Assembly (NCBI GenBank): GCA_945910005.1
Contig: OX246738.1
Span: forward strand, 23,073,686-23,137,685
Length of the DNA stretch: 64,000 nt
Source: Isoperla grammatica
Taxonomy: Eukaryota; Arthropoda; Insecta; Plecoptera; Perlodidae
Direction of reading: 5' to 3'
Each line of letters begins with the position of its first letter. The stretch's first letter is position 1. Below are positions 729 through 62,037 of the stretch, piece by piece. The notes under the pieces were generated by a model. It was not told where the DNA came from, searched no databases, and saw nothing but the letters and a program-made list of their open reading frames with translations. The position numbers were made by a program, and so were the translations under genes.

Positions 729-2286
729 ATGTGAAGAAAAAAAAATGTATTCTCTTCCTTTGCTTAACTTACCATGGAAGAGAAAAGTTAAAGTGTCACA
801 AGGAGAACAAAATGTGGAAGGAAGTGGTGACACCATATGTGTTTTATGCAATAAAGATTGTGGGGATATGCCAAGTCTAAATGAGCATATTGTTACACAT
901 ATTGGTGGCATATCAACTATGGCTGCTAATTTCCCTGATAATGTGGATGATAAGAAGATTGAGTTACCTCTAGCCAATATTGCAAGCAAAACTATTGACC
1001 ACGATTATTCGATTAAAGATGCCGAGGAAGATGCAAGGGTTTCAAATACAAATGTAAAAGTGCGGCACATCAAGTGTTGGATAGATGATCCGAAAGTAAG
1101 TGAGAAATATTATTACTCGTGTACGCTGTGCGGTACCAAAAAGTTTACATTCAACAATTTATCTACACACATTAAACAAAAGTGCTTGCTCGCCGGATTT
1201 CTGGCAAACGAAAGTGACAACGGACAGGTTCCGAACAAGAAGCCTCGAAACGAAATCGTCCGGCTGTACGTGAGGACTCCCAAAGAGAAGAAAAGTGCCG
1301 AATTGAAGTGTGGGATGTGTGACAAAACATTCCTCTATCTAAGTACTCTAAACCTGCACATGAAAACTCACATGCCAAGACCCAGATTCCTGTGCATCAC
1401 GTGCGGCCGCTCGTACTATAACCGGTCGAATCTGTTGGAACACACGAAGACTCACACAGACGAGCCGGCCAGCTGCACGATCTGTGGCGTGACTTACCGT
1501 AACGCCATCATGCTGAAGACGCACATGATGTCACACACGGGGACACACCCTTACCAGTGTGATAGATGTGAAGAGGGGTTTCTATTTGAGACGGACCTCA
1601 AGAAGCATCTGAAGCACGAACACGACTACGTCCGCCGGGACTTCCAGTGTCCCACCTGCAAGAAGATGTTTACCTCAATGGTGCGGCTGTCACTGCACCG
1701 GAGTGCCTACTGTAAGGAACGCGGTAAGAGTCTCCCACCAGTGGTTCGAGCCCCGGCCAAGGCCACACGCACCACTTGGCTCTGTTCCGTTTGCGGTAAA
1801 TCGTTTGGATCTAGACCTTCTATGGTGGTCCACGAAAGGTCCGTCCATGCTGGGGAGGTGAAACAGCAGACGTGCACGATCTGCAATAAGGTGTTTCCTT
1901 ACCGTGATCAGTTCAGGCGTCACCTGAAATGGCACCAAGGAACAGAGAAGCTCACTTGTCACGTGTGTGGCTGGCTCTGTGCTCCTGGCGCTTCGATGCG
2001 GGGACACATGATGAGTCATTCCGATCACCGACCGTTCGTGTGCCAGTGTGGGTCGTCTTTCAAACGCTCGAGTCATCTTCGAGTTCATAAGAAGTCTGTA
2101 CATAATATGAAGATGCCGGCACAGTGTGATAGACCAAGACATTTTTCATGTTACATTTGTGGTGAGACCTTTGAAGGAAGGAAAGAGCAAAAGAACCACA
2201 CAGATCTTCACCATCCATCAGAGGAACTTACTTCTACGGAGCAAAGCTTGGAATCTAATGAGCTGAAACAGTTAGAAGAAAACTGA
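729..2286 (+). CDS. ZF1: C2H2 zinc-finger protein, terminal coding exon
   Basis: This exon encodes the C-terminal 518 residues of a probable nuclear DNA-binding protein. It follows a T-rich tract and CAG at 726-728. One base (729) completes a split codon, then TGT opens the frame, so the intron is phase 2. An in-frame ATG at 745 is possible but need not be the start. Domains in order from that ATG: a C2H2 finger near residue 32, an HIK-preceded C2HC motif (Cys near 126, with Cys as last ligand), then about ten further fingers to near residue 490. These include the MLKTHMM finger shared with the other exons. One finger ends in Cys (HRSAYC) and one has a shortened CQC knuckle after RPFV. The terminal CGRAFxQSGDRNKH finger found in most paralogues is missing, and the tail is Glu-rich. 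The middle of the exon looks richer in G+C than its neighbours. Family membership is clear; target genes are unknown. Confidence 0.9.
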
Positions 2287-2824
2287 GCATTTTCTCTTCA
2301 ACCAGAAGTTTACATGAGCTATTTCAATTTCGTTTCAAATACATTATTCCTGCAGCAGTAAAACATATAATGTCTGTCTTCTAAGTTCTCGATTTTCTCT
2401 AGTTTTGTAGTTAAACTCGTCATTTTGAGAATAGTCCACATAATCTGGCTACTGCTTTTTAACAAAGGGCTCGGTTGAATAGGCAGACCCTGTGACTGTG
2501 TTTGTCTGCAAGCCATTCGATAATTTTGTTCTTCTCTCTTTTTTTTATCAAGAATCAGATCACCTGCATATTTAAAAAAATGTTGTTCTAGACATGTTTG
2601 TATTTATGTTAATATTTAATAGTAATATCAATACATATTTCATTTGAATGTTGTGGGGGAAAAATGAATTTGTAAGTAATTTAGGTCACTACCCACATAT
2701 GTTTGTTGATTTAACTGTAACAAAGTGGCACCCTAATTTTAATGTAGAATGTCAAACTCTTCTCATGAATATATAACTTAAGTTTCTTATTTCTAATTGA
2801 TCATGTTTAAAAAATATATCCCTG

Positions 2825-2830
2825 AATAAA
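2825..2830 (+). terminator. candidate poly(A) signal of ZF1
   Basis: AATAAA about 540 bases after the ZF1 stop, in AT-rich sequence. It is the first canonical hexamer I see after the stop. Only cDNA ends would prove use. Confidence 0.45.
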
Positions 2831-5230: not shown

Positions 5231-5251
5231 GTAAGTAAGTAAGTAAGTAAG
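5231..5251. repeat. (GTAA)n microsatellite
   Basis: Five GTAA units in a row followed by a degenerate one. Simple repeat without other signal. Confidence 0.85.
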
Positions 5252-6207: not shown

Positions 6208-8524
6208 GTGCAAAGAAGACCTTTCCCAGATGTTTGAGCAAATTTATGGAAGAGAGTCAAACAGCAGTACTGTAGGTGACCACCCCATTTTGCCACCCAA
6301 AGAAGCTAATTCAATTGAGCAGGCTCCATTACCTGTAGAGACTAATGTTCCACCGTGGATGGAACTTCATGAAACAGATAACAGGCAAAATAAGTTTTGC
6401 ATGCTGTGTTCTGCAGCAAATATGACTTTGTCAGAGCTTAAGGATCACCTCAATTCACATGTAACTGAAGACCCTCTTACTGATTGCAACAATTCCTCAG
6501 AAAACATTATTTATCCAAAGTTCAGTACGTTCAAGCACATTACATGGCGTCAAAAGGCAATAGGAAGTTCTGCCAAAGTTTATTCGTGTGCCATGTGTGG
6601 TCAGTACACCATATATCTAAGTGATGTAGCCTGGCATGTAAACAAAGAATGTTGCCAAGCAACAAACTCTACTGATGTAGTTAATAAACATCCTACGGAT
6701 TATATTAAATGCGACGAGTGCCACAAAAAATACTCTGATCACAGCGAGTATGTCAGACATTTGCGGATGCACGCTTCCAAAAGAAAGAAAAACATCCAGC
6801 TCTCTGATCTCGATTCTGGATGTGACGGAGACATCAAACTTACTTGCAAGATTTGTTTTAAGACAAACAACGATCCTAAGGTTTATGAAAAACACATGAA
6901 GACCCATGAAAAACTGTTGGATTACAAATTCATCTGCGTGACTTGTGGCAAAACCTACTTGATGCTGTCTTCTTTAAAAACACACATGGTGTGCCATGCC
7001 GTGGAGCCGGTAGTGTGCAACTGTTGTGACAAAGTTTTCAAAAATGAAGTGATGCTTAAAACACATATGATGCTTCACACAAAGGAACATCCTTTTCCAT
7101 GTCACATATGTGGCAATAGATTTGTTCTTGGAACAACACTTGCAGAGCACATAAGGCAGGTACACAAGGGGAAAGAAACAAACTTCCCATGCAAGTACTG
7201 TGGCAAAGTTCTGACTTCCAATCTGAGGCTGAAAATCCACCTAGATGGGCATGTCAACAAAGCTCCTCGACAACCAGCCACCCATCTCTGTTCCACGTGT
7301 GGGAAGTGCTTTAGTTGGAAGTCTAATCTAACAACCCATGAGAAACTGGTTCATCGCAAGGATTCGAGAGTCCACGTGTGTTCGGTTTGTGGTAAGATTT
7401 TTAAGACTGCGACTGCACACCGTTATCATACGGCAAACCACGAAGGAGTTGAAAAGTACATCTGCGACGTGTGTGGCTTCGGCTTCTGCACTCCAAGAAA
7501 TTTAAGAGTTCACAAGTTTTGCCATTCGGATTCACGGCCATTTGCATGCAAGTTTTGCAGTTCAACTTTTAAGCATCATAGAAACTTGCAACACCATCGC
7601 AAGACAGTCCATGGTATTAACCCTAAGGGAGAAAATGCTAAGACAAGGTACCCATGCAGTATATGCAATAAAAAGTTTGCTTCTCTAGAATTCCAAATGG
7701 ACCATATGCGCATTCATAACAACGAGCAACCTTTCCAGTGCAAAGTGTGTGGTAAGAAATTTACTCACTACCAAGGTCTTTTCAAGCACTTGCGTACCGG
7801 TCACATGCCAGTGCCCACAGATCAAGAGGAAGCAATCGATCTCGGAAAGCTGTTTCAGTGTCCCGTGTGTGGGGAATGTTTGGAAAGTAAATCTATTCTT
7901 GGGGAGCATAAAAGAACGGTACATGGTCAGAGTGAAGATGACACAACTCTTCAATCCAGGCAGGTACGGGAACCTATCGAATGTAAACATTGTGGCAAAA
8001 AATTTGCGAGTAGCAAAAGCTTCCTTGAGCATGTTAAAACGGTTCATAGTATTACGGGAGAGTACGTTTTTGCTTGCAAACATCCTGGATGCAGCAAGAG
8101 TTACAAGAACCTCGTTGGTTTACGGCAACACGAATATAAACAACACAGTGGCATGGAACGAAAAATGTATCCTTGCCAAATATGCCAAAAAAAGTTCACC
8201 ACGAAGATTGGCCGAGATTTTCACATTGACATCCACACCGGGAGAAGAGCTTTCACATGTGAGCTCTGCGGCAAGTCTTTTCGTCTGAAGTCGAGCCTCG
8301 TGGAGCACGCTCTGACTCACACAAACTTGATGCCTGTGACTTGTGACGTGTGCAACAAACACTTCCGCAAACGCTCACATCTTATTACACACATGCGCAC
8401 CCATACCGGTGAAAAACCGTATGCGTGTGATGTGTGTGGGCGTGCGTTTGCACAAGCTGGTGACCGTAACAAACACAGAATTAATATGCACAAATATTTG
8501 CAAGAAGCAAGTGGCAGTGTTTAG
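6208..8524 (+). CDS. ZF2: 21-finger C2H2 zinc-finger protein, terminal exon
   Basis: The exon starts after tttacag (AG at 6206-6207) with one base completing a split codon, then TGC AAA GAA, so the intron is phase 2. In-frame ATG codons follow at 6230, but the frame is open from the acceptor, giving 771 residues. Counting from that ATG: a C2H2 finger at residue 57, the C2HC block with the HIT motif upstream (Cys 120 and on), then a continuous array of about 19 fingers to residue ~750. One finger has a wide C-x4-C knuckle (CKHPGC). The array contains the MLKTHMM finger, the VHGINPKG finger and a last CGRAFAQAGDRNKH finger. The only canonical TGEKPY linker joins the last two fingers; most other linkers are non-canonical. 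Probably a nuclear DNA-binding regulator. It is followed by an unusual repeat-rich 3' UTR. Confidence 0.93.
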
Positions 8525-9760: not shown

Positions 9761-9790
9761 TCACTGGTTTTCACTTACGTGCACACACAC

Positions 9791-11310: not shown

Positions 11311-12537
11311 TTACAAGATGATATTGTCCTCAATGTATTCCTTTACTGAGTAATAAGCTTTGGATAATAGAAACTTTTTTATGGAGTACTTAAAATTAGC
11401 TAATGAGTGCATTTCTTTTATCTTAGCCGGCAGTTTGTTAAATAGTTTTATATGTGTAAAATTTGAGTTTGTTTGTGTTGATAATTTAGAAAAGTAATTT
11501 ATATGAATGTTATTATTTACTCGTGTGTTATAGTTGTGTAAATCCTTGTTTTTCTGCAATGTATTAAAATTTTTCTTTACTTTTAAGATTACCTGCAAAA
11601 TGAAAAGGCTGTAGAGTGTTAATATATTTAATTTCCTGAATAGAGGTTTACAATGGGTCCTTTGGGACTTGTTTAGCATTGACCTTATAACTTTCTTTTG
11701 AATTGTAAATATTTTTTTGCAACTGGAAGAATTGCCCCAAAATTCGATCCCGTATCGGATGTGTGCCTCAAAGTTGGCAAAATAAACAATTTTAGCTGTT
11801 GCATTGTTTGCTATGGACTTAATTGACTTAATTGCGAAGTAACCTGAATTTAGTTTTTTAGTTAACCGGTTTATGTGATCATGCCATTTAAGTTTTGCAT
11901 CTATTAGTAGCCCCAAAAAATTTGCTGAAGGTTCTTTTTTTATGGAGGTGTTGTTGGTTTTGTTTAATAGGGTTTTTAACTCCTCTTGTGGGTCTTTCAG
12001 AAATTCAACTAGCGCAGACTTGGCTTCGTTTAATATGAGCTCATTGTCGTTGAACCAATTGGTAGCTTTTGCAATTTTAAGCTCGCCTTCTTGTTTTAAA
12101 GTTAAGTTGCCGTTGGCTTTAGCTATCAAGTTTGCATCATCGGCAAATAGTTCAGAGTCCAGTATGTTAAGAGGAAAGTCGTTGATAAATATTAAAAAGA
12201 ATAGTGGTCCTAGGATTGAACTTTGAGGGACCCCTACCGAGATACGCTCATTATCGGAAAGAAACTTTAGTTCAGTTCCATTATCATTGGTGTGAATTAT
12301 CTCAACTTTTTGTTGCCTGTCTGCAAGGTAGGACTTAAGTAGAGCTAGTGGAGTACCTCGGATTCCATAGTAACTACATTTGTCTAGTAAGATTCTGTGG
12401 TTCATGCAGTCGAAAGCTTTACTGAGATCGCAGAAAATTCCGGCTACCGGAGTTCCTGTTTCAATACAATTAACTATAGTTTTAAGAACTATAGTTTTAA
12501 GTTTTTTGTATGGGTATAAATTAACATTCGTATAACA
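11311..12537 (-). mobile_element. LINE reverse-transcriptase fragment (5'-truncated)
   Basis: The minus strand encodes the C-terminal half of a non-LTR retrotransposon ORF2 with no internal stop. Visible motifs are the catalytic A box FCDLSKAFD (about 12407-12440), the B-region GVPQSSILGP with FFLIFINDF, the FADD active site (about 12130) and a LINE C-terminal region. It resembles jockey/CR1-type elements of arthropods by eye. The frame stays open upstream of the first Met to 12537, where a 15-bp duplication (aactatagttttaag, 12472-12501) suggests the truncation or rearrangement point. No endonuclease or ORF1 is present, so it is dead. The 3' UTR probably extends to lower coordinates, toward about 11100. 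Confidence 0.9.
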
Positions 12538-12712
12538 CTAATGTTCAATGCTGTTCAGAGGTTCACAATACATATACAGACCATCATACCTACCCCATGG
12601 TGATGGACATGTCTTCAATGTACAGTACCATGTTAAACTGTGATTAACTTTATCCTGATGGTAGTTAGGCTGGAATTTTATTTATTTATTTATTTCATAG
12701 CTGTTCCCTTCA

Positions 12713-12937
12713 CCTAGGGGTGCCCATTGTTATCAATGTAACAGTTGTTTTGCATGTTATTTCCCATATAAAAACAAGTCCATAGCAACAATGGGTGCCC
12801 CTACACCTAGAGATGGCCATTGTTATCTAGGTAACAGTTGTTTTGCATGTTATTTCCCATTAAGAAAACAAATCCATAGCAACAATGGGTGCCCCTACAC
12901 CTAGAGGCACCCATTGTTGCTATGGGTTTGTTTTCTA
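12713..12937. repeat. palindromic repeat block, two direct units plus an inverted part
   Basis: Two ~97-bp direct copies share gtaacagttgttttgcatg and end with caacaatgggtgcccctac. A third piece inverts that end (gcacccattgttg). Each unit starts and ends with complementary GCCATTGTT / AACAATGG words, so it can fold back. It is probably a MITE that duplicated in tandem. Confidence 0.65.
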
Positions 12938-13124: not shown

Positions 13125-14883
13125 GTTGAATGAAGAAAGTGAATTCAACCTGGACTTAGATTATCGTGCACGGTTGTTAGACATCAGCCATTGCCACAGT
13201 GACTTCAGTGATATCCCGGATTCTGAGACCACTCTCGGTTACAATGATGACCTAATAACAATTGTTAAAGACGAAAACAATCTGTTGACATGTCCCATTG
13301 CAGGAGATCTACCTATTGAGTCATGTGTGGCTCCGATTTCTTGTTTGGATGAAAATAACATGCCCGTGTTTATTGAAAGTGTTCCTTTACCCACTGAAGA
13401 TTTATTGCCAGTGTGTGAGTATAGTTTCCCTGCTGAAGACATGTTACAGATACCTGAAGACAGTTTGCCTGAAAATGAGACACAAGCAATAACTGATGAA
13501 GTATTCTTCCCTAAGTTTAGTATGGTAAAGCATATAAAATGTTACAACAAAGTTAAGGGTGGTCACGAAAAAGTGTATTCATGCAGTTCTTGTAGCCAGA
13601 AAATGATACCTTTAACTGAAGTTTACAGGCATGTAGGTAAGGAATGTTCTGGTTCTCAGACATCAACAAGTAGCATAGGAAAGAGCAACTTTAATCTAAA
13701 AGGTGAACAAGGGGCAAGAACACACAATATACACAACGAAAAGTCTAGTTTACTAGCGTTAGCATTGACAAGTGAAGTAAAAGCAAGCAAATCTAATGCA
13801 ACTAAAAATGTGAACCAGGACAGTTGCAGTAAACTCGTATCTGATATTGAAGTGAGCAAAGTTGTGAAGAAAGTTAATGAGTCTTCCAAGACTGAGAAAA
13901 AGTCGTCACCAGCCATTAGTCTGGCAGGGGTCAGATCTACGACAGTCAAGGGCACCCAGAAACCATGGCCTTGTTCTAAGTGCAACAAAATGTTTGCACA
14001 CAAAACATCACTTCAAGCCCACATGGTGCATCATTCTTTTGGAGGGGCCAATTGTAATTACTGCGGAGTAATGGTCAAGAATAGCATGTTACTTGCACAC
14101 ATGAAGCTCCATTCCAGGGCTCATCCCTTTCAATGTTTGCAATGTGATAAAGGCTTCATTTTTGACACATCTCTAAAGCTGCATATAGAAAAGGAACATG
14201 CTTTGCCAAATGGACCTTTCAAGTGTGATTATTGTGATAAGTCTTTTCTTACACAGTCATCACTGACCATACACCAGTCGAGAGCTCACGCGGTCAAAGT
14301 GAAGGAAGAGCCTTCTCTATGCCCCATATGCGGCAAGTGTTTTAAGAGCAAGTCAAGTTTGGACACTCACGAGACGACGGTTCACAAAAACATACACAAA
14401 TACATCGTTTGTCCAATTTGTAATAAACGTTTCACTGTTCGCAAATCCTTTGAATATCACATGTCCGTTCATGATGACAAGGACACCTGCGTTTGTAAAG
14501 TGTGTGGACAGAGTTTTAGAAATGAAAACACTCTTCTTGGTCACATGCTATGCCACTCGACTGCAAGACCCTTTGCTTGCAGGCTGTGTGAATCGACGTT
14601 CAAACGCAAAAGGAACCTTCACGCACACATGCAAAATACGCACGGGGCTGTTTCTCGCAACGAGGACGTATTTTCCTGCAAAATCTGTTGTAAAACCTTT
14701 TTTTCTGAAGCTTTCCGTAAAGAACACATGCGTACGCATAACGACGAGCGCCCGTACCACTGTCGACTGTGTGGTGTGAAGTTCTGTCATTACCAGGGAC
14801 TCTACCATCACAAAAAGAAAATGCACGTTCAAGCTCCTGTAAAAAAACGAATGGAAGGAGGAAAAAACAGTACAACTAAGTGA
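13125..14883 (+). CDS. ZF3: C2H2 zinc-finger protein, terminal exon with acidic N-terminal part
   Basis: The exon follows tttctttcag (AG at 13123-13124); one base then TTG AAT GAA gives phase 2. There is no in-frame ATG for nearly 80 codons, so the start must lie in an upstream exon. The exon part is 585 residues. Residues 1-125 are Asp/Glu/Pro-rich and could be an activation or interaction region. The VKHIKC-C2HC block sits near 138-174, then a Ser/Lys-rich linker. About ten C2H2 fingers follow from ~284 to ~570, including an MLLAHMK variant of the shared finger whose spacing is short. The array stops at the HYQGLYHH finger, so the downstream fingers and terminal CGRAF finger seen in ZF2 are absent. 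The tail is Lys-rich. Likely nuclear DNA-binding. Confidence 0.92.
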
Positions 14884-18876: not shown

Positions 18877-20434
18877 ATATCAAGCAAGACTTCACAAAAT
18901 GGCACCCATGAAAGATACAAAAGAATCATGTGTGGGTCCATCAAAGTTGCTTTCTTTAAAGCCCAATGCTACTGTTGGGAATACAAGACTATGCCATATT
19001 CAAAACAATCGTGTAGTTAGGAAGAGAAAAGTGCTACATAATGGTACAGATTCCCCCAAACCTGCAACTGTTTCCAATATGAAAAAAAAGAATAGCAAAG
19101 TTGAGGATGAATGCAAAGAAGACCCTCGTCGGCCAAAACAAACAAAGTTCTCCTGTAGCACGTGCGGCAGGGTTTACAGGCGGCAGATGTACTTAATACA
19201 ACATCAGAAAACCCACATTACAGCACGAGAAACCTGTGGTCTGTGTTCAAAACAGTTCAACAAGAAGAGTGTCTTGCAATACCATATGATGCTGCACACT
19301 GGTGTTCGCCCACACAAATGCTCTCTCTGTGATAAAGCTTACATATTCAAATCCTCTCTCAATAACCACACCTTAAGAAAACATCAATCCCAGTCCACCA
19401 AGGAAGAGTTTGAATGTGATATTTGTCGTAAATTATTAACCTCTAGGAAACGACTAGAGATTCACCTCAACACCACTCACAGTGGAGAAGGTTTGGCTAA
19501 CAAGGTCGCTGCACCCAAAGTCCTGTGTCCTACGTGCGGTAAGGCCTTTTCCTCGCCGGCTGTCTTGAGGAGCCACGAACGACTGAAACACGAGGTTCGA
19601 CCAAAGCAACATATATGCGAAGTGTGTGGCCTGGATTTCCATATTCTATCAAAGCTGACTGAGCACATGGAAAAACACTTAGGGATCAAGAAATTTTCTT
19701 GTCATATTTGTAATGCATCTTTCCACAAGAATGGTCAACTGAAAGCTCATCAAATCACCCACAGCGAATTCCGTCCATTCCCATGCAAACTTTGCAGTTT
19801 GGCATTCAAAGAAAACCGTGGTCTGAAACGACACGAAGAGTGTGTCCACGGTATAATCCCCGACGGAAAGATGAGACGAGAGAGGGCAATGCCATGTATA
19901 GTGTGTGGAAAGAAGTTTGCACGCCCAAAGAGATTGGAGGACCACATGCGTATGCATAGTGGAGAACGCCCGTTTGCGTGTGACCAGTGTTCGAAATGTT
20001 TCTACAGCACCAAATGCTTGAGGTCACACCTTAGAAGTGTGCATTGGAAGATGCCAAAGTATCACAAGAAGGCTGATGGCAGTGAGCAAGAGGTCTGTAA
20101 CAAATGCAATAAATCTTTCAAAAATCACGGAAGTTTACAGAACCATCTCCGAAGGATCCATCAGGGAAAGAAGGAGGCCAAGTTGACGTGTGAAGTGTGC
20201 AACAAGGTTATGCATGGAAATGCTGCTTACCGTGTTCACATGTTGATACATAATGACGAGTTCCCATTTGGCTGTGACAAGTGTGATAAGCGAGTCCGGA
20301 CAAAGTATCAACTTCAATGTCACATGTTGAACCATGCTGGGGCTAAGTCTTTCTCCTGTGATATTTGCAATCGAGCATTTGTACAAAAATCTTCCAAGTA
20401 TAAGCACATGAAAAAGTATCACACCTCAACCTAA
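18877..20434 (+). CDS. ZF4: 14-finger C2H2 zinc-finger protein, terminal exon
   Basis: The acceptor is tattttcag (AG at 18875-18876). One base then TAT CAA GCA gives phase 2, with ATG at 18899 seven codons later. The exon part is 518 residues. The segment before the fingers is short and basic (RKRK near residue 41, KKK near 62 of the ATG-initiated form). It lacks both the N-terminal finger and the HIK-C2HC block of the other members. Fourteen C2H2 fingers run from residue ~86 to the end, including a VLQYHMMLH version of the shared finger, the VHGIIPDGK finger, and a last finger CNRAFVQKSSKYKH. That last finger is a diverged form of the CGRAF finger. Linkers are mostly non-canonical. It is the most diverged of the eight. 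Likely nuclear DNA-binding. Confidence 0.92.
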
Positions 20435-30922: not shown

Positions 30923-33900
30923 ATCTCAAGACAACCAATTCGAATGTTCTCACACTTATATCAGTTGTAAAACAATTGATCCTTATCTGGGAATGGCTAA
31001 GAAAGACACATCTGCTGGAGAACATAGCAAGTCAAGTGTAATAGGGCAAGATAAGTTTTCTGTGTTTGCAATAGTGGATGGGGACAATGAGAGTGCATTG
31101 GAAGTGGAATCAGAAGATTTATCACTGGAAGTGACTGAAGAATACCGTTGCACTATGTGCCACAAAGACTACATGGATGCCGATGAATTAAAGGCGCATG
31201 CCATATGTCATGTGGAACTCAACCTTCTGAAACAAGAGACTAACGGTGTTGAAGTGGTCTTGGCCAACAAAGATGGTGTTGATCATCACACAGAATCAAT
31301 TGGTGTTACCAAAGACATTAGCACATTCACCAAGGCCGCGTCGGATCCATGGTTGGGTATTTTTGACAGATGCAGGGTACCAAGGAGATTTTTCAAACTA
31401 GCAAAACCTAAAAGAACGTATGGCAAACCAAAATCAAAAGAGGAGGCATTTAAGAAGCTCCCAATACATGTAACGTGTTCACATGACACAAACACATTAG
31501 CTGAGTGTATAGACGAGCCGAGTGGACAACCAGGGGCCGAGTTATATAACCAACTGATAGACCTTCCTCCGCCATCTACTAATCACAGTGATGATGTAAC
31601 ATATAAACCACTGATAGACCTTTCTCTGCCATCTACTAATCACAGTGATGATGTAACATATAAACCACTGGTAGACCTTTCTCTGCCATCTACTAATCAC
31701 AGTGATGATGTAACATATAAACCACTGGTAGACCTTTCTCTGCCATCTACTAATCACAGTGATGATGTAACATATAAACCACTGATAGACCTTTCTCTGC
31801 CATCTACTAATCACAGTGATGATGTAACATATAAACCACTGATAGACCTTCCTCCGCCATCTACCAATCTTAATAATGATGTTACATATGAACCACTGAT
31901 AACATCCACTTCAAGTCTGGAGCAGCCATTTGCCAAAGCTAGTGTGTTTTTAGTAAATAGCATTGACGGTGAATATATCAAGAGCAATGATCTAACATTG
32001 AATCCTCTTGTATCAGAAATCGAAGCATTAACACCAAGGCTGTTGCCACCAACTAGAAGTGCACTTTGTCGCATTAAAGTAACTTTGTCAAAGCAACCAT
32101 CAGCTATGAAAACTGTGACTTCACATAACGACGTATTAAACCAGCGACTTGTGACGGGAGATAAATCACATCGTGCTGAGACATCATCAACCAGTAGTCC
32201 TCTGACAACAGGAGAAAACCCTCAGTTGGAAGCATCATTAACAAAGCCACTCCCTGCAATCGGAAGTAAGTCACAGTCATGTGCCCGGGACATGGTTCTG
32301 CTATCGGCACTCTCGCTTTCAGAACAGATGGTTTTGAAGGATACGCAAGAATCGAAATCTCCTGAAGTACAAGGAAACGAATCAAACGAAACTGAATCGG
32401 AATCAGAGAGCATTCTTGAAGCTGAACTTGGAGTAGTTGGTGAGTGTAACTCCAGTACATTAAAATATAAAAGAAAGCATAATGCAAACAAAATATCTTT
32501 TGTGTGTGATATTTGTGATAAGGCATATGCTTCAAAACGCACTTTGAAGTGCCACACCGATAATACACATACACCATTGGATCCAGTGATATGCAGTGTT
32601 TGTAACAAGACGTGTCGTAACGAGATGATGCTCAAAACACATATGATGTGTCACACTCGGGATTACCGTTATAAATGTTTGACGTGTGACCAAGGATTTC
32701 CTTTCTTCTCCGCTCTCAAAAGACACCGACTTCAAGAGCACAATATAGTGCAAAGACCACTTAAGTGTAATCTCTGCGGCAATATATATAGAACCAATCA
32801 GTGTTTAAAGACTCACATAAAGACACACATAAAGACACACATTGTACAACATTCGGGTGAAAAAAGGAAATATCTTTGTCCCAAATGTGGCAAAGTGTTT
32901 TTAAAGTCAACGGGCCTTGCATCACATATGATCTGCCATAAGCCTAAGAAGCATCTATGTCATATTTGTGGTGCAAAGTACCATTATTCTGCTGAGCTTG
33001 GGAACCACATGTTGTGCAAGCATGGTGAGAAAAATATACCATGCGAATCTTGTGGTGCGTTGTTTTATTCTCCACTTCAACTCAAGAGTCATATACTTGG
33101 GTACCACACTGAAAATTTGCCACAAAAATGTTCTAATTGTGACAAAACATTCAAACACCCCAAACAACTTCGCTGCCATGAGATATTGATTCATGGTATC
33201 AATAAAGATGGCACAAAAGTTTACCACTGTGAAATTTGCAACCAATCTTTTATAGACTTCAAAAAAATGACTGATCATACAAATCTTCACACAGGAAATC
33301 GACCATATCCCTGTAGAGAATGTGGCGTCATGTTCAGAAACCGCCACACTCTGATGCAGCATAAGCGAATACATTTAGGTGTCCCGAAAATGTCCGGTAA
33401 CGTGAGTTGTACCTTGTGCAATAACAAATTTAAAACTCTGCTGACACTACACAATCATATGAAACGTTGTCATGAAAGTGGAAAGGAAAGGCCCAAATAT
33501 GTCTGCAATATTTGTGACAAAGTCTATTTTACTCGTTCTACTTTCAATCAACACAATATATCGGTCCATCTAGAAGAGGAAGAAGCAAATTCCAAATCCC
33601 AAAACACCAGAGTCCAAACTTACCGGGCCGGTTTCAAGCAGTCCAAACAAAAGAAGTCTCTAGTGTGTGGAGTGGAACGTCCCTTCAGTTGCAATCGCTG
33701 CGACAAAGCATATTCTACGAATGGTGGTCTGTACCAACATGTAAAAAATTTTCATGAGAAGGCAAATAAAAAGACTTACTCGTGTCCAGATTGTAGCGCG
33801 CTTCTCAGTAGTACCACAACGTTGAAATATCACCGTACGGTAATGCACACCACTAGTACAGAAAAACACCCATGTGAAACGTGTGGCAAGTGTTTTAAAT

Positions 33901-34121
33901 ACAAACCCCATCTAGCTGCACATAAGTTAACACACCTTGATAAGAAAGACAGAAAATTGTTCAAGTGTGAGTTGTGTGGCAAAGTGATGATGTCTCTTTG
34001 GGCAAAGCATGTGCACATTAAGATTCATAAAGGAATTAAGGCGCACAAGTGCGGAGTTTGTGGACGTGCTTTTACCCAGAGTGGTGACCGAAACAAGCAC
34101 CAAAAAAAATGTAAAAAATAA
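30923..34121 (+). CDS. ZF5: 18-finger C2H2 zinc-finger protein, terminal exon with tandem-repeat linker
   Basis: The exon follows tctttttttcag (AG at 30921-30922). One base then TCT CAA GAC gives phase 2. The frame is open for 23 codons before the first ATG (30993), so translation probably enters from upstream; the exon part is 1065 residues. Counting from that ATG: an N-terminal C2H2 finger (Cys near 53, ending ELKAHAICH), a long low-complexity linker to ~500 with six copies of a 19-residue repeat (about 187-300), then 17 fingers from ~503 to the end. One finger carries a tripled IKTH. The last finger, CGRAFTQSGDRNKHQKKC, ends in Cys instead of His. The HIK-C2HC block is missing here. Fingers 9-11 (CEICNQSF ... 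HTGNRPY) and the penultimate LWAKHVH finger pair it with ZF6 and ZF7. Likely nuclear DNA-binding. Confidence 0.93.
31551..31892 (+). repeat. in-frame tandem repeat, 6 x 57 bp, in ZF5
   Basis: Six consecutive 19-residue units of the form PLIDLSLPSTNHSDDVTYK. Units 2-5 are almost identical in DNA (the Ile/Val change alternates). Units 1 and 6 have PPP in place of SLP, and unit 6 is the most diverged (NLNN, TYE). 342 bp is an exact multiple, so the frame is kept. Confidence 0.97.
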
Positions 34122-40305: not shown

Positions 40306-43300
40306 AACAAGACCGCCGTGTTCAATTCCAAACAAGTTCGTCAATTGTGAAGTTCTCCATACCAAACTTAACCCAGGTACTGAAGATTGTCTCAAGAACT
40401 GGATCAACTTGGAAGCCGATTTGGTTCAGTCGCAGCTTCGTCAAGTGCCAGACCACATTGGTCCTCGTTCCATCGTCTCTAAACCTTACTCACATGCTAA
40501 TACAAACCAGGACATAGCCATCAATCTAGACATTTCATGTTGTGCTGGTCTGTTAGAAGAAAGTGCTATATCTGGTGCAAACATGCATACAACATCTAAA
40601 TCTGTTGCTAATGCCGCACAGGAAAAAGCTGTCAAGCTTGGCACTTTGTGTGCTGATGGTCTGTTAGAAGAAAGTGCTATATCTGGTGCAAACATGCATA
40701 CTACATCTAAATCTGTTGCTAATGCCGCGCAGAAAAAAGCTGTCAAGCTTGGCACTTCGTGTGCTGATGGTCTGTTAGAAGAAAGTGCTATATCTGGTGC
40801 AAACATGCATACAACATCTAAATCTGTTGCTAATGCCGCACAGGAAAAAGCTGTCAAGCTTGGCACTTTGTGTGCTGATGGTCTGTTAAAAGAAAGTGCT
40901 ATATCTGGTGCAAACATGCATACTACATCTAAATCTGTTGCTAATGCCGCACAGGAAAAAGCTGTCAAGCTTGGGACTTTGTGTGCTGATGGTCTGTTAG
41001 AAGAAAGTGCTATATCTGGTGCAAACATGCATACTACATCTAAATCTGTTGCTAATGCCGCGCAGAAAAAAGCTGTCAAGCTTGGCACTTTGTGTGCTGA
41101 TGGTCTATTAGAAGAAAGTGCTATATCTGGTGCAAACGTGCATACAACATCTAAATCTGTTGCTAATGCAGAGCAGGAGAAAGCCGTCAAGGTTGGCATT
41201 TCGTGTCCTGACAGACTTGCTGAAGAATGTGTTCGTTCCCTTAAAAACACTTGTAAATCTAACTTGCTTGCTGTTACAAACGAGAACAAAGCTTTAAGTC
41301 GTATGCCAGGAGGTAATTTTGCAATTCGCTGTGTGAAATCAAGTGCTTTAATAAGTGCAGATAAATCTGTCGAACATGCTCCAATCTCTTTTGTAAACCA
41401 CCCTACATCAAAGAGCACAATTTTAAATCCCGAGAATCTAAAATCGTACTCCAAGCCCTCAGCCAAGGTTGTGAAAGTAAGCCATATTAAATGGCATCCT
41501 TTAAAGAATTCCAGTGGTGCAGTGTATTCTTGCTCTTGTTGTGGTCAGAAGAATATTGATGTCATTTCGGTTATAAATCATGTACAGAAGGAATGTATCA
41601 GTTTACCGCAAATTGATGAGCATAAGACTTTTGAACCACATACGTTATCATCAGACGTTCTTCCGACTGAGATAGAAGCAAGAAAAGTCACACTTGATCA
41701 CACTTTTGGGTTCAAAAGTGTTGATGCAGGGGTGGTCAATGGTAAAGACATTGATATCGATGTAATGGGGGCTTCAAATACTGAATCTACATTGGCCGTA
41801 GGTCTTGATAACACAAGCCAGGGTGAAGCATCCCCCTTTGATCCTGTGATAGTAAGTGTATCCTCATTATTGAAGCCCGCTGTAGTAGACAGTCCAAAGA
41901 GGATATTCAAATATATCATACGAAACTCAAGTTTGATATCGTCATCAGCAGCAGCAGCAGCAGCAGTACCAGCTAAAAAGCTAAAAGCTAATGTTTATAA
42001 ATGCAAAAATTGTAAAAAAGTTTTCAAATCTATGAACAACTTATCAAAACATGAAAACTTGTGTAAGTATGGTAAGTTTTTGTGTCTCATCTGCGGTAGA
42101 TCGTTTAGCAAAAAAGGACGGCTGACGAGACACATTGAAACACACGGATATAGCCCCGCAACTTGTACCGTCTGTGGAGAAACTTTCCGCAACGACATGA
42201 TGTTGAAAACACACTCCATGTTGCATACTGGCGAACATCCTCACAAGTGTTCCGTTTGTGGCGAGGGATTCATTTTCACTACATCTCTTCAGAAGCATCT
42301 GCACAAAGAACATGATATAGTCGAAAGAAATTTCAAGTGCAACCAATGTGATAAACGTTTCACAAAGGAAGGATTTCTCACTCAACACCAAAACAAAGAT
42401 CACTCTGGTACAAAACCGTTGCATCTTTGTCCTACGTGTGGAAAGACGTACAAACATAAATCTAACCTTACGTCGCATATGGCAATACATGGCCCTAGAA
42501 AGCATGCGTGCAAATTATGTGGGTACAAAGCATACTCGAATCAACTTCTAAGTGCACACATTTTGAGACACAAAAATGAAAGAAACCACACGTGCGACAA
42601 ATGTGGGGCTTCCTTTTATAACATGAATGAGTTAAAGAGACACATCTTCAATCACCACACGGACGAGTTTCCCGAGCAATGCACGCTTTGCAATAAAGCA
42701 TTTAAGTTTCCAACCAGGCTTAAACACCACATGATTTTTGTGCATAGGATTATCCCTGAAGGGAAATCTCTGCTCAGTTGTGAGATATGCTCACAGCCAT
42801 TTCTAGATGAGTACAGGTTGAAAGATCATATGAATATACATACGGGAGATCGACCTTACGTTTGCGAGGAGTGTGGTCGGACATTTAGAAACTTAAAAAC
42901 TTACACGAGCCACAAGAAAATCCATTTCAAGTCCAAGGAATTAAAAAATACTTTTTCTTGTGATACTTGTAATAAGACCTTTAAAACCAATCGTACACTG
43001 TATCTCCACCAACAAAACGTTCACATAAGAGGTGTTCCAAGTTCGTCATTGGTGTCGTGCGATCTCTGTGAACGAACTTTTCCGAGCATTTGGGTGTTAA
43101 ATAGACACAGGCTCGGAGCTCATTCAGTCATTGGGCCATTAGGAGAGGGGCATGCGGTGAAGCCGCACTACGAATGCAACTTGTGTAAAAGTGTGTTTGA
43201 AAGTTCACCTGATTTGTTGGAACATACTAAAACCACACATGCCAATACTGAAGAAGAAACCCAATCAAATGACGAAACGTTGGACAAACCTAGTGAGTGC

Positions 43301-43849
43301 AGAAAACGATCGATAGTGAATCGTGATAGTACCCGACCATATGGTTGTGACGAATGTGACAAAAACTATGCTTCAAGATTAGGTTTATACCAACATCGAA
43401 GATTAGTACACAGATGTAAGGCCAAGCCTGTAGCACAAACCAGGAAGCAATATGAATGCAATTATTGCTTCAAGATGTATTCTAGCTATGCCAGTTTATA
43501 TCAACATCGACGTTATAGCCACTCCCCGAATATCAAGCCAGTTGCTTGTGTGACTTGTGGTAAAACTTTTAAACTTAAAACCACATTAAAAACACACATG
43601 CAAACACACTTGGATGATTCTGAGAGAGAAACTTTCCATTGCAATATTTGTGACAGGTATCTGAAAACAAAGTGGGCACTTCAAGTACACACGCAACAAC
43701 ACATGGGGATTAAACGTTACTCGTGCGACGTCTGTGGCCGTGCATTTGCGCGGAAGCATGAACGTGACAATCATCTGCAAAAGATTCATGGCAGGACACT
43801 ATTACTGCCACCTGATGTTGTTGAAGAGTTTTCTGGTATGCAATATTGA
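40306..43849 (+). CDS. ZF6: ~20-finger C2H2 zinc-finger protein, terminal exon with 37-residue repeats
   Basis: The exon follows gtttttctttccag (AG at 40304-40305). One base then ACA AGA CCG gives phase 2. It is open for 1180 codons, and no ATG occurs before the repeat region, so the start lies upstream. Residues ~71-292 are six copies of a 37-residue repeat. The VSHIKW-C2HC block begins near 390 (first Cys ~407). A CAG-encoded poly-Ala run sits near 548. About 19 fingers run from ~563 to ~1150, the first ending in Cys. They include RNDMMLKTHSM, VHRIIPEGK, SCEICSQPF and the terminal CGRAFARKHERDNH finger. The N-terminal AICH-type finger of ZF5 and ZF7 is absent. Close relation to ZF7 is seen in the shared RIIPEGK, RLKDHMN and TKW segments. 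Likely nuclear DNA-binding. Confidence 0.93.
40517..41182 (+). repeat. in-frame tandem repeat, 6 x 111 bp, in ZF6
   Basis: Six 37-residue units containing LLEESAISGANMHTTSKSVA, near-identical in DNA. A decayed seventh start (AVKVGISC) follows from 41183. Units differ mainly at QEK/QKK and LGTL/LGTS. The high identity also keeps a long antisense frame open (40486-41466), which is not a gene. Confidence 0.97.
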
Positions 43850-47864: not shown

Positions 47865-49106
47865 CACTGTCTAATCCTGGACCAGGCTAGTCCCCTCGGC
47901 TGGGTGTAGTGTAAGATGTAGCATAGTGCTGGTTGGGCGCCATGGCTCTATGCCTAGGTTCCCATGTCACTGGCAGACTACGCTGTACCTCTAGTCCCAG
48001 GGCACAGTCTAGTCCCGGACCAGGCTAGTCCCCTCGGCTGGGTGTAGCGTAAGATGTAGCATAGTGCTGGTTGGGCGCTGTGGCTGTATGCCTTGGTTCC
48101 CACGTCACTGGCAGACTACGCTGTACCTCTAGTCCCAGGGCACAGTCTAGTCCCGGACCAGGCTAGTCCCCTCGGCTGGGTGTAGCGTAAGATGTAGCAT
48201 AGTGCTGGTTGGGCGCCATGGCTCTATGCCTAGGTTCCCATGTCACTGGCAGACTACGCTGTACCTCTAGTCCCAGGGCACAGTCTAATCCTGGACCAGG
48301 CTAGTCCCCTCGGCTGGGTGTAGCGTAAGATGTAGCATAGTGCTGGTTGGGCGCCATGGCTCTATGACTAGGTTCCCATGTCACTGGCAGACTACGCTGT
48401 ACCTCTAGTCCCAGGGCACAGTCTAGTCCCGGACCAGGCTAGTCCCCTCGGCTGGGTGTAGCGTAAGATGTAGCATAGTGCTGGTTGGGCGCCATGGCTC
48501 TATGCCTAGGTTCCCATGTCACTGGCAGACTACGCTGTACCTCTAGTCCCAGGGCACAGTCTAGTCCCGGACCAGGCTAGTCCCCTCGGCTGGGTGTAGT
48601 GTAAGATGTAGCATAGTGCTGGTTGGGCGCCATGGCTCTATGCCTAGGTTCCCATGTCACTGGCAGACTACGCTGTACCTCTAGTCCCAGGGCACAGTCT
48701 AGTCCTGGACCAGGCTAGTCCCCTCGGCTGGGTGTAGCGTAAGATGTAGCATAGTGCTGGTTGGGCGCCATGGCTCTATGCCTAGGTTCCCATGTCACTG
48801 GCAGACTACGCTGTACCTCTAGTCCCAGGGCACAGTCTAGTCCCGGACCAGGCTAGTCCCCTCGGCTGGGTGTAGCGTAAGATGTAGCATAGTGCTGGTT
48901 GGGCGCCATGGCTCTATGCCTAGGTTCCCATGTCACTGGCAGACTACGCTGTACCTCTAGTCCCAGGGCACAGTCTAGTCCCGGACCAGGCTAGTCCCCT
49001 CGGCTGGGTGTAGTGTAAGATGTAGCATAGTGCTGGTTGGGCGCCATGGCTCTATGCCTAGGTTCCCACGTCACTGGCAGACTACGCTGTACCTCTAGTC
49101 CCAGGG
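47865..49106. repeat. 138-bp satellite, exactly 9 copies
   Basis: Monomers begin at 47865, 48003, 48141, 48279, 48417, 48555, 48693, 48831 and 48969, all spaced 138 bp, and differ by only a few substitutions. The monomer is G+C-rich compared with its surroundings and contains CTAGTCCC three times. It lacks a plausible tRNA or coding frame. Confidence 0.97.
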
Positions 49107-49148
49107 TTTTGTTTTAACTCCTGATACGGTAAGCGTCCAGGTTGCTAA

Positions 49149-49677: not shown

Positions 49678-52201
49678 GCATATTTTACAGCAGCCAACAC
49701 CACCAAGTACAATGAAGATATCTGCAGATAAACATGTGACGAGATATGACATGAATGATGATTGGTTTCTGGAATCGGATATTCAAACAGTCAACGAAGA
49801 AGTAGTTGGCCATTCTTGCCAAAAATGTCCCAAAAATGGAATGGATGATGAAGAATTTAAGGCTCATGCTATATGCCACGTAGAAGAGGGTGGTATTGAG
49901 AGTGAACCCGAAAACTTCACTGACAACACAAACGCTGTTAAATCCAGAGCTAAAAGAAAACGAATTAAAGTTGGACATATTAAATGTACCTTTTCCCAAC
50001 AGGAAGATTCTGAACATTTAGTATATACCTGTACTTTATGTGGAAATGAAAATATTCATTTTAGTGTAGTTTCAGCCCACATTAAAAAACAATGTGTCAG
50101 TGCTCATATATTATCGGAGCTTATTTCAAGAAATGATGACACTCGTAATTTCAGAGCTCTTTCAACCAAGGATGAAGCTAGCAGTATTTTCAAAGTAAAT
50201 TATGGCAACACTAATATACTTGAGGAAATTGTTACTTTGTTCAACCCATTGATATCAGATAGTGGGGTCTCGACCTGTGACGTATCCGCATTGGAAGCCG
50301 AACAAAAGACAGTAAGCAAGCAGTCCTTAGTGTCTTGTATAGCAACTGCCAGTGATAGTTCTACATTACAGTCAGCCCTTGTGTATGAATCCATTGGAAT
50401 GGATGACAATCCCTTCAGTAATTTAATGAAATATTCAGTAGCAGAAGAATCAAATTCATTCAAATGTACTTACTGTAGAGAGTCTTTTTTACTAGAAGTT
50501 GAGCTATCAAAACACCAAGAAACGTGTCATGCCGATTGCCAAAACAATCTGTTGTGTCTCATTTGTGGCAGGTCGTTCTCAAGGAGGAATGACCTCAAAC
50601 GTCACGTTGAGACTCATGAAGTGGATCCGTCTCAGTGTGGTGTGTGCAACAAAACGTTTCACAATAAGATAATGCTGGAGACTCACACAATGATGCATAC
50701 AGGTAAACATCCTTTTAAGTGCTCCATGTGTGACAAGGGCTTCATCTTTTCATCTTCTCTCAAAAAACACATGTTAAAAGAACATAAGGTTTTAATGAAA
50801 GATTATCAATGCAACAATTGCACCTGTGCATTTAAAACTAAACGAGGGTTAAAGAAACACAAAGAACGTGAACATGAAGGGGGTGAAAATCGATTCCTCT
50901 GTCCGACGTGTGGAAAAACATTTTCTACCAGTTCGACGCTGGCTTATCACATGTTCACGCACGGCCCACGAAAACACGTTTGCGAAGTCTGTGGTTTCGG
51001 ATTTTACTCGAGTTATATGTTGAGAAAACACATGGTTCGCCATGGAATTAATAAGAACTGCATGTGCGAGACTTGTGGGGAGATGTTTCACCTGCCAGTC
51101 GAGTTGAAACATCACGTTTTCAACCAACATACAGATGACCTACCCTCAAAATGCACTCACTGTGATAAAGCATTCAAATATAACCACCGGCTCCAAAGAC
51201 ACATGATTTTTGCTCACAGAATCATCCCAGAAGGAAAACAAGTATTAAGCTGTGAAATCTGTAATCAACTTTTCCTTAATAAGTCAAGGTTGAAAGACCA
51301 TATGAATCTCCACACGGGCGCACGGCCATATTCGTGCAGCGAGTGCAGCCACAAGTGTAGAAATCTCCATACTCTAGCGCAGCACAAAAAGGTGCACGCA
51401 GCAGTTCGGAAACCAAAGAACTCGTTTCCGTGTTCCGTCTGTAGCAAGAAGTTCAAGAACGAACGAACTTGGCGCCTGCACAACCAAAGTGTTCACCTTA
51501 TGGATGCGGAGAAAGCAGTGTCGTTTCCGTGCACCGACTGCGAGAAGAGTTTCGCCGTGATGTGGATGCTGAACAGACACAAGATTCTGGCTCATTCCGA
51601 GACTGCAACGACGGGTAGCCGGCGCTACTGCTGCGATCTCTGCGAGGAAAGTTTCCCCAGCTATACGAGGTTAATAAATCACAAGAGAGAGACACATTCA
51701 GTGGAAATAGCAGAGAAAGAATGCCCTTTGTTTCAATGCACGCAATGTGATAAAAGCTACCGCACAATGAGTAGCCTATACCAACACAAACAAAAGAAAC
51801 ATTCAATAACTGCTAACAGAACTTACCCATGCAAATTGTGTGGCAAGATATTGAAGAGTTCTACTGCCTTGTTTCTGCACGGAAGATGTATTCACGGACT
51901 CAACCCAAGAGATTACAAGTGTAACACTTGTGGCAAGAACTTCAAACTCAAAGGCGGTCTAAATAGCCATCTGCTTACACACGTTGACATAAAAGATCGA
52001 AAAGTGTATACGTGTGGGATTTGTTTCAAGGATCTCACCACTAAATGGTCATACGAAGTGCACATGCGTGTCCACAAAGGAATTAAACCTCACGTTTGTG
52101 ACATATGTGGTCGCGCCTTTACTCAGAGCGGTGATCGCAATAAGCACAGACTTAATACACACAGGGAGATCCTTCAAGCAAATGAAAGCAAAGATCATTG
52201 A
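49678..52201 (+). CDS. ZF7: 21-finger C2H2 zinc-finger protein, terminal exon
   Basis: The acceptor is ctttttttag (AG at 49676-49677). One base then CAT ATT TTA gives phase 2; the first ATG is at 49712. The exon part is 840 residues. An N-terminal finger starts near residue 46 and ends EFKAHAICHVEE, almost the same as in ZF5. The VGHIKC-C2HC block follows (Cys near 117). After an acidic linker, about 19 fingers run from ~262 to the end. Shared features with ZF6 include the NKIMLETHTM finger, AHRIIPEGK, SCEICNQLF and RLKDHMN, the ...DIKDRK linker and the TKWSYEVH finger. The last finger is CGRAFTQSGDRNKH. The reading frame upstream of the acceptor is open by chance into the intron and should not be counted. 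Likely nuclear DNA-binding. Confidence 0.93.
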
Positions 52202-57919: not shown

Positions 57920-58363
57920 TAGGGCTGCCCAACGATATCGATAATTCGATACAATATCGATAATAGATAGATAATTCGATATCGATATAGAATTAATATA
58001 TCGTACATACCACGATATCGAACTTGTGCCTAATAAGCTAATTGATACAAAAAACCGATTACGTATCACGTCACGCCAACCACACCATCGCTGTTTTGTG
58101 TGGATATTTTACAATTTGAATAGTACAACAAACAAATTGACACACATAGTAAGACATTTCAAAGCTAAAATATTTCTTTACGTAATATTGTTTAAAGAAT
58201 GACCTCTAGCTGGCCTGTAAATCCTAAAAACAGTCGAGAAAAGTTTCGATGTGGCGATATCGCCGATATCGATACGTCACTTGAAAACTTCGATATCGCG
58301 ACGCAATATCGATATTTCTTCCCTCGATATCGATATGATTTTTTTTATCGTTGGGCAGCCCTA
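57920..58363. mobile_element. hAT-type MITE, TAGGGCTGCCCAACGAT family, copy 2
   Basis: Ends TAGGGCTGCCCAACGAT and complement, flanked by identical 8-mers ATTACAAG (57912-57919 and 58364-58371). Internal sequence matches copy 1 in reverse orientation: both contain a conserved ~45-codon open stretch, on + in copy 1 and on - here. Confidence 0.88.
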
Positions 58364-59402: not shown

Positions 59403-59753
59403 GCATAGCATGGTGTATGGCATTGGCATAGTTTACTTTGCTATAATATTTTTAAATTACCTTAATTAATAAATTTTGATAGTTAGTTTTTTTTTTTTGT
59501 AAACCCCTCCCCAAGACCAAATTCTGTGTGCACCATTGAATAATTGATTGTAAATAGGCATGGTACACAGCCTCAACTGTACATGCACCAATTGACTATT
59601 TAATGGCAAGTATTTTGTAACATACAGAGATTAATATTACACAAATAAGTTTGTCCGAATGTTAAATAAAATATAAGAACAGTGTTTTTTAATTTAGAGT
59701 GAAATATGTTTCACTAATCCAACCACTAATTCAAATTGCTCTTTTTTTTACAG

Positions 59754-62037
59754 GTATGACAATGCATCTAACGTTTCCACCGTTCAGCAAAATTGCGTGT
59801 TTCTTGAAAAAATCAAAGAGGAGAGTTGTGAGGATGAACCTCAAGAGATGGTGTCAAAGCCAGGAGAAGAAGACCAAGATCCTTTTAAAGAGACCCCATT
59901 GAATAATTGTCCGCCTTTCACTAGCAACCACAGGGTACACTTACAAGATAAACAAAAGTATTTGGAAAGCATTGTTGTTGAGAATATGACAACCACAGAC
60001 ACTAAAGGTCATAAAAGAAACGCAGTCACAGTTAACGTTGACTCATTGCTGAAGACAAAGTTTGTACCAAATTATATTAACTATAGCTCTAATAGCTCTA
60101 ATGCAGGTGACACTTACTCACTTTATTCATGTACCACTTGTGAAAACACCTATGCTACTTTTGCTGACTTGTTGATCCACACTAAATTTGAGTGCTCGCA
60201 ACCACATGGCGTCTTGCCGCAAGAACAGCCAGACGACGTTATATCACTGGCAAATGTAAAAGAAAGTGACATATTACAACATATTCAAAAAATATGCACT
60301 GACAATTTGGGTACTATGTACTCGTGTTCCGTCTGTGACTTAGCAAACCTAAGTTTCTCACAAGTGCGTTCTCATGTTAATTGTTTTCTGAGGAACGGAC
60401 CGAGCTCTCATGATGTAAACTGTGGAAACGAGGTTAAGACCCTATTGGATTCCCATAGAAAGCAACTACAAGAGGCTATAGAATTCAAAAAGTATTCTTG
60501 TCATATTTGTCCAAAGTTTTACTCGACAAACAAATCACTAAAGGAACACATCAAAAAAATTCATCAAAACTCAACAAAGTGCAAGATTTGTAAGAAACTA
60601 TTTACAAATAAGATACTTCTTAAAACCCATGTAATCCAGCATCATAGGAATCACCGCTATGTTTGTCATATTTGCAATAAGGGTTTTATCCTCCGATCTT
60701 CTCAAATAAAACATATTTTGGTTATACACAATGCTCAACCTAAATATTTCAGATGTAAGATATGTTACACACGTTTCTATACAAAGTTCAGCTTGGACAA
60801 GCATCTAGATAAAAACCACAAACCAGGGAACATGAAGTTCTCCCATTTGTGTTCTATCTGTGGCAAATCTCTATCTTCAGCTGGATGTCTCTGGGTTCAC
60901 GAGAAAAGTGTTCACGGAACAGAGCCGAAGCAACACACGTGTGAGAAATGTGGGAAAAGGTTTCGTTTTGCAACAGTTCTAAAGAAGCATATGAGCAGGC
61001 ACATGGGAATCAAACGCTTTGCTTGTCCATTGTGTGGTAAAAAGTATTTTGACAAGGCCTGCATGTTAAAACATCAAGTATGTCATTCTGAGGCTCGGCC
61101 TCACGCGTGTAAGATTTGCGACATGACATTCAAGCGACCAAACAACCTTAGAAATCATGAGATTCGCGTGCATTGCATCATGCCTCCAGGCAAGACAGTT
61201 TACCCTTGTTCTGTTTGTGGCAAAGAGTTCATTTCTAAAAAGAGAGAGTTAGAACACATGAATATTCATACTGGTAACTGCCCTTTTTCTTGCAATCTTT
61301 GTGAAAAGAGCTTTAGAAGCTCTGCAAGCCTATATACACACAACTGGAAGATTCATTTAAAAAAGAAGAAGAACTACCCAAACAGTAGCCATCAATTTTT
61401 GTGCGACAAATGTGATAAAAGTTACCGAAACATGGCAACATTGAAACAGCATCAAAAAAAGGCACACGGTCTTAATGACAGTGAGGAAACTAGCGCCACT
61501 TCAACGTGTAATAAATGTGAGAAAAGTTTTAGTAATAAGCAGAGTTTGCGACGTCACATTGATAATATTCACCAGAAAGCAACAACCTCTGGTGAGCAAC
61601 AATCATTTTCTTGCGATGCCTGCGACAAGACGTACAACAATAGACATAGTTTGTACCAGCACAAAAGGAATATTCATATGAAGAACAAAAGTGAGAAGCA
61701 TACCTGCAGTACTTGTGGAAAGACATTTAACAACAAAGGTAGTCTGTATTCTCACAGTCGTATTCACGTTAAAGCTCATACTTGCGAAGTATGTAACAAG
61801 TCCTTTTCATGGAAGTCAAAGTATTTGACCCACTTGACAACTCATTCCGAAGACAAGCCGTTTGCTTGCCCGACGTGTGATAAAACGTTTCGTCGAAAGT
61901 ACGAACTGGAGGTTCACACTCGATCGCACACGGGGGAGAAACCCTATCCGTGCGATGTTTGTGGTCGTGGGTTCTCCCAGAGTAGCGACAGAAATAAACA
62001 TCAGACCAAAGTCCACGCAAGGAAGCAACGGAAATAA
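59754..62037 (+). CDS. ZF8: ~19-finger C2H2 zinc-finger protein, terminal exon
   Basis: The acceptor is ctttttttttacag (AG at 59752-59753). One base then TAT GAC AAT gives phase 2. It is open for 760 codons with no ATG among the first ~30, so it probably continues from an upstream exon. A C2HC motif (YSC...FEC) lies near residue 124. A second, degenerate HIQ-preceded copy lies near 189, with Cys where the first His-side ligand is expected and no last ligand. Seventeen C2H2 fingers follow from ~248 to the end. They include KILLKTHVIQ with HNKGFIL-type follow-on, VHCIMPPGK, four CDKSY/CEKSF fingers, and the terminal CGRGFSQSSDRNKH finger preceded by a canonical TGEKPY linker, as in ZF2. The tail is basic (RKQRK). 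Likely nuclear DNA-binding. Confidence 0.93.

Follow-up and report, generated by a model that had tools for sequence, protein, structure and literature searches.

A predicted ZAD locus with thirty interchangeable zinc-finger exons in Isoperla grammatica

How many genes does a long row of zinc-finger exons represent when every exon lies on the same strand and starts in the same intron phase? The question is raised by a stretch of 64,000 bases from Isoperla grammatica (Plecoptera; contig OX246738.1, here C5, positions 23073686-23137685), which we call the window and for which an earlier note had proposed a lola-like locus with alternative 3' exons. Regulators with a shared front and many ends have their textbook cases in Drosophila, where they rest on BTB genes; the common exons of mod(mdg4), for instance, encode a BTB domain. 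We have analysed the window together with flanks of 200 kb on the upstream and 20 kb on the downstream side (284 kb, from an assembly of 874 Mb in 603 contigs). Positions are given as window numbers, such that a C5 position equals 23073685 plus the window number and negative numbers lie upstream of base 1. The proposal gains support from a single ZAD for thirty finger arrays, a phase-2 donor, and the isoforms annotated in related insects. We consider it likely that this is a locus in which one ZAD front end is spliced to 30 interchangeable finger exons, one at a time, as alternative last exons in cis.

The finger exons and their common front end

The window contains eight open reading frames (ORFs) with C2H2 arrays, all on the + strand and 527 to 1189 codons long, and Pfam confirmed the arrays at the C-terminal end of every one. 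They lie where the earlier note had placed its eight co-oriented terminal exons, ZF1 to ZF8, which are E21 to E28 of the full array. Counted by pattern, there are 12 fingers in E21 (ZF1, 729..2286, starting A|TGT), 21 in E22 (ZF2, 6208..8524), 10 in E23 (ZF3, 13125..14883), 14 in E24 (ZF4, 18877..20434), 18 in E25 (ZF5, 30923..34121), 20 in E26 (ZF6, 40306..43849), 21 in E27 (ZF7, 49678..52201), and 18 in E28 (ZF8, 59754..62037), which corrects the reported range of 11-21 to 10-21. Two of these exons carry an in-frame coding minisatellite 5' of the fingers, with units of 57 bases (19 residues) at 31487-31942 in ZF5 and of 111 bases (37 residues) at 40384-41349 in ZF6, and imperfect short repeats occupy 12706-12918, directly upstream of the ZF3 acceptor.

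All eight exons had been described as following a polypyrimidine-AG in phase 2 that leaves exactly one base ahead of the first full codon. We find the same: the AGs end at 728, 6207, 13124, 18876, 30922, 40305, 49677, and 59753, each is the top-scoring AG before the first finger, and a single base precedes the first codon in every case. Start codons do come as late as described, the first in-frame Met (counted from 0) falling at 78 in ZF3, 23 in ZF5, 92 in ZF6, and 31 in ZF8. The AATAAA seen after each exon carries no information, with AATAAA or ATTAAA occurring every 448 bases in the window.

The array extends beyond the window on both sides. We count 30 ORFs with at least two fingers across the 284 kb, every one of them on the + strand, while the opposite strand has none: E01-E20 between -86327 and -3895 (7-18 fingers each), the eight window exons, E29 (68439..70545, 15 fingers), and E30 (77275..79606, 15 fingers). 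The total is to be read as at least 30, the sequence being N beyond about 81.5 kb, downstream of E30. Every frame is open, over 245-1183 residues in E01-E28 and about 700-780 in E29-E30, and all 30 exons have an acceptor candidate placed such that a single base precedes the first codon, A in eight exons and G in 22 but never C or T. When scored with a simple home-made matrix, the phase-2 AG ranks first in 26 of the 30 exons and second in three (E07, E10, and E30). By way of control, eight other finger loci of the genome, each about 3 kb, yielded seven ORFs (some of them cut by the locus ends), and the top AG was in phase 2 in just one of the seven. An all-against-all comparison separates two classes of exons, E02-E17 with 7-12 fingers and E18-E30 with 10-21, each finding its best partners within its own group; E01 stands outside both.

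A shared phase alone could stem from duplication, as had been pointed out before and as we agree, so the decision falls to the number of ZADs, the codon at the junction, and the isoforms that relatives have. A coding scan first pointed to the beginning of a ZAD some 121.5 kb 5' of base 1, where we predict four common exons on the + strand. Exon A (-121550..-121324) encodes the first half of the ZAD and has a phase-0 donor; exon B (-118657..-118499, phase 0 to 0) encodes the second half, so that a phase-0 intron splits the domain; exon C (-116650..-116528, phase 0 to 0) encodes an acidic linker; and exon D (-116433..-116300) encodes a basic one. Joined, the two ZAD halves match PF07776 over positions 1-74 of 75 with 51.5 bits (Pfam cut-off 28) and E=1.3e-13. 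The true start codon may lie further upstream than exon A, and a search for a first exon 5' of it gave no convincing candidate. Exons C and D, both missed by a strict-threshold scan, were chosen from a scored list at loose thresholds (the donor of exon C is weak, at 1.9) and are backed by the homologous stretch of Periplaneta.

Exon D ends GAA AG|GTAAGC and thereby supplies a phase-2 donor, of the kind that the earlier note had proposed to look for as a shared donor ending a codon after two bases. If the frame is read past exon D unspliced, a stop follows directly after the junction codon. Because the donor contributes AG and every finger exon an A or a G, the junction residue would be Arg for all 30; a first base of C or T would have made it Ser. 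What can be read directly from the DNA is that the frames are open, in which order, on which strand, and in which phases they lie, that there is a single ZAD, and that an Arg codon would form at every such junction. A direct splice from exon B to the finger exons was also considered and is ruled out by the phase-0 donor of exon B; phase 2 is therefore supplied by exon D.

Each ZAD half matches only once in the 284 kb. Hidden Markov models built from 15 and 16 distinct insect sequences were run against 12,220 open fragments of the stretch, fragments with long N runs being excluded, and found the halves at E=5e-22 and 3e-27, with the next-best matches at 1.3 and 0.58. As a positive control, the same models recover a more distant ZAD on another contig, C1 (6e-8 and 0.0018). 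Of the N-terminal exon that had been expected upstream of base 1, BTB or other, the latter is found, in the form of a ZAD. A BTB as the shared domain was rejected, since a lola BTB query gave a best E of 4.1 in 264 kb; in a genome-wide BTB search, which split BTBs could escape, none of 125 matches lay near the locus (C5 22.87-23.16 Mb).

From these features, the front end would be spliced to the finger exons in Isoperla as parts of one predicted locus of 34 exons on the + strand, reaching from about -121550 to 79606 (201 kb), with the window inside it and the window exons as its middle-to-distal part. Exons A-D, encoding the ZAD and the linkers, would end at the phase-2 donor, to which the 30 downstream exons offer matching acceptors. 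Each transcript would join just one finger exon, chosen in cis from one ZAD promoter, and each last exon would have its own poly(A) site. The predicted output is at least 30 transcription factors that share the ZAD and differ in their finger arrays, probably acting as DNA-binding regulators. In other ZAD proteins, the domain dimerises and is required for nuclear entry (PMC5081699). By analogy, the common ZAD at C5, a marginal match to structure 1pzw (E=0.12), would pair the products and help their nuclear entry, and isoforms expressed together could pair into mixed dimers whose DNA specificities combine.

One N-terminus and many ends in other insects

A search with the common region returned 49 proteins. 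The top 18 are all Periplaneta models, with isoform numbers up to X28 and the top models matching at 57% over 97% of the query; they are followed by termites, stick insects, a katydid, lice, true bugs and their kin, and two Hymenoptera. In 17 of the 18 Periplaneta models, an identical stretch of 232 residues opens the protein and closes with ...SASER, after which each diverges; the 18th model (P0011) has a different start and was set aside. An exact common prefix followed by divergence recurs in six models of Cryptotermes (...SASER), five of Bacillus (...LSTER), three of Anabrus (...AAAER), and two of Menopon (...DDKER). As modelled, then, the gene of these relatives is one gene with many isoforms that diverge at the junction Arg.

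Several finger exons can be matched individually to isoform tails. E10 matches the ZAD isoforms of Periplaneta, Bacillus, and Anabrus (P0015, P0031, and P0034) at 61-70%; E02 resembles P0017, P0033, and P0046 and matches an Apis cerana ZAD isoform at 73% over 207 residues. Further orthologue-like pairs are E17 with P0007 and E12 with P0014, and E01 matches Timema P0026 at 48% over 370 residues. E29, a distal exon of the long-array class, is the best match of the ZAD isoforms Periplaneta P0018, Cryptotermes P0020, and Bacillus P0029. Some single exons thus look orthologous across insect orders, to judge by these alignments.

A few isoform models (P0008, P0001, and P0030) have at their end a dehydrogenase or a tail for which Pfam lists no finger domains. 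They are either chimeric models or finger-less isoforms, such as have been reported for three lola isoforms (PMC1947980).

Cis choice and its alternatives

A choice in cis is favoured by the single strand, the intact acceptors, and the tight gaps. The same ZAD design might instead be joined by trans-splicing, with the finger exons transcribed from promoters in the gaps and the ZAD carried on a separate pre-mRNA. The distances between exon D and the acceptors, 30-194 kb, would suit this route, which is established for mod(mdg4) and partly for lola (PMC12692577, PMC1947980), and the window exons are separated by 4-10 kb, which is room for promoters. The smallest gaps (637 bases before E17 and 801 bases before E04) leave little such room; moreover, all 30 finger exons lie on the ZAD strand, whereas the exons of mod(mdg4) lie on both strands (PMC12692577), and no positive sign of trans-splicing was found at the C5 locus. 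We regard trans-splicing as rather unlikely here.

Far less probable is that the units are independent zinc-finger genes in a tandem cluster, with a private promoter and 5' exon for each and a ZAD that belongs only to the nearest. Duplication would keep the phase, and 37 of 91 fly ZAD-ZNF genes do lie in tandem clusters (PMC7655104), but such a cluster has to accommodate one ZAD for 30 arrays and models of relatives that have one N-terminus in common. It would also lead one to look for distinct 5' exons in the gaps, which the earlier note had named as the finding that would speak against a shared front. We scanned the gaps for ATG exons of at least 10 codons with a phase-2 donor scoring at least 3; 22 of the 29 gaps, including all seven between window exons, hold no candidate, multi-exon 5' parts lying outside the scan. 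Peptides on the + strand are common to only five of 406 gap pairs, with no first-listed match exceeding 27 residues, and the gaps of the window have in common only repeat or transposon-like peptides. That the row consists mostly of decayed exon duplicates with few in use, a reading to which the distal exons without clear partners might point, is hardly credible with all 30 frames open and several exons conserved between insect orders.

Several observations weigh against one ZAD front end with finger exons chosen in cis. On the DNA itself, the acceptor of exon D is weak (-1.7), and the phase-2 acceptor of E01 is a weak AG that was picked by family resemblance. A genome-wide Pfam ZAD search, with 44 matches, did not return this ZAD; such a search is blind to split ZADs, which is why half-domain models were used. 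Short ATG-to-donor candidates, at most two per gap, do occur in seven of the 29 gaps, and the gap scan is blind to multi-exon 5' parts and to donors scoring below 3 (that of exon C itself scores 1.9). Docking-type base pairing of the Dscam kind between the common intron and the acceptor flanks was no more frequent than at random sites.

Other such points come from the relatives. Their isoforms come from public gene models, the names of which look automatic. Bemisia (two models) lacks the Arg junction, and Macrosteles has it in two of three models. Pfam lists finger domains in 15 of the 17 Periplaneta models, one having none and one being dehydrogenase-like, so that some of the models may be chimeras. 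Among 39 isoform tails, E21-E28 have no clear one-to-one partner (best identity 27-35%), and seven of the eight window exons find their best match in the same Bacillus model. For E22, the protein search gave mostly generic finger proteins among the best 120 of 396, and the top match is a Timema model that has no ZAD in its Pfam list and that matches E29 better. With partners this distant, the window part of the array may be lineage-specific.

The gaps of the window also contain repeats. Between ZF6 and ZF7 there are tandem repeats at 47727-49130 (138 bases), close to the 2-kb step at which the window is richest in GC, and at 44475-45196 (50 bases). An inverted pair at 37160-37539 and 57920-58298, about 380 bases long, 96-97% complementary, and 20 kb apart, probably represents one young repeat family. 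On the minus strand, 11311-12537 is a reverse-transcriptase-like ORF of 408 residues, recognised by eye from its FADD box and lacking a Pfam match at E<=0.01; a related piece lies at 21414-21683.

Known systems, a second locus, and what they mean

Several known systems resemble the predicted locus in part. Common N-terminal exons are joined to alternative C-terminal ones in lola and, by prediction, at C5. In lola, this gives at least 20 isoforms, the majority of them containing zinc fingers (PMC1947980); its common part is a BTB, and most isoforms have one or more fingers, in contrast to a ZAD and 7-21 fingers per exon at C5. Likewise, mod(mdg4) has constitutive exons and many alternative 3' ends, with more than 30 isoforms, but it is described as exclusively trans-spliced from exons on both strands (PMC12692577), whereas C5 has a ZAD, uses one strand, and is compatible with splicing in cis. 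The fly ZAD-ZNF family has the same protein layout as predicted at C5, an N-terminal ZAD, a linker, and a C-terminal C2H2 array, but its clusters are made of tandem genes rather than of one ZAD for 30 arrays (PMC7655104, PMC9810180). Alternative 3' ends are also found in cucoid, a ZAD-ZNF gene of culicine mosquitoes; its three ends trim the finger array, whereas whole arrays would be exchanged at C5 (PMC9810180, PMC6783274). The annotated multi-isoform ZAD genes of Periplaneta, Cryptotermes, Bacillus, and Anabrus are of the C5 gene type, with the same junction residue. A ZAD locus with exchangeable arrays was not found described in the titles and abstract openings of mainly non-subscription literature; the gene models of relatives are already public, and the general kind, a shared front with alternative ends, is known from lola and mod(mdg4).

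The genome appears, by its sequence, to have a second locus of the same design as C5. On the minus strand of C1, a ZAD and a linker lie at about 556-559 kb, in exons with phases 0, 0, and then 2, and the phase-2 donor, GG|GTGAGT, predicts Gly at the junction as against Arg at C5. That the phases recur here also speaks for the reading of C5. Two 10-kb pieces of C1 were read (C1:425000-434999 and C1:549001-559000). Within the 10 kb of finger array, four of four ORFs have phase-2 acceptors starting with G, and no ZAD was found there (best E 0.16); at least 18 finger places, spaced by more than 1 kb, lie between ZAD matches at 557 and 338 kb. The C1 front end retrieved 491 proteins, among the best 120 of which are many numbered isoforms of Cryptotermes and Hymenoptera. 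In five chosen species, taking all their rows among the matches listed, divergence sets in right after ...SG: Cryptotermes (6), Athalia (14), Venturia (16), Cephus (8), and Colletes latitarsis (8). This is the Gly predicted by the C1 donor, and multi-isoform ZAD genes of the C1 type in Cryptotermes and Hymenoptera share this junction residue with C1.

Tentatively, and with the odds rather against it, one could go further and suppose that insects have at least two ancient ZAD loci built as cassette banks, each splicing one ZAD to dozens of exchangeable whole arrays. The products, mixing through the ZAD that they have in common, would give hundreds of paired DNA specificities from a single promoter, and the scattered ZAD-ZNF genes of flies would be what is left of banks that broke up. 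If the C5 locus works as predicted, the counting of zinc-finger repertoires would change, with one gene instead of 30. The locus would then offer a natural set of DNA-binding domains under a single promoter and a single pairing domain, and the origin of the ZAD-ZNF expansion would become directly testable by comparing the locus across insects.

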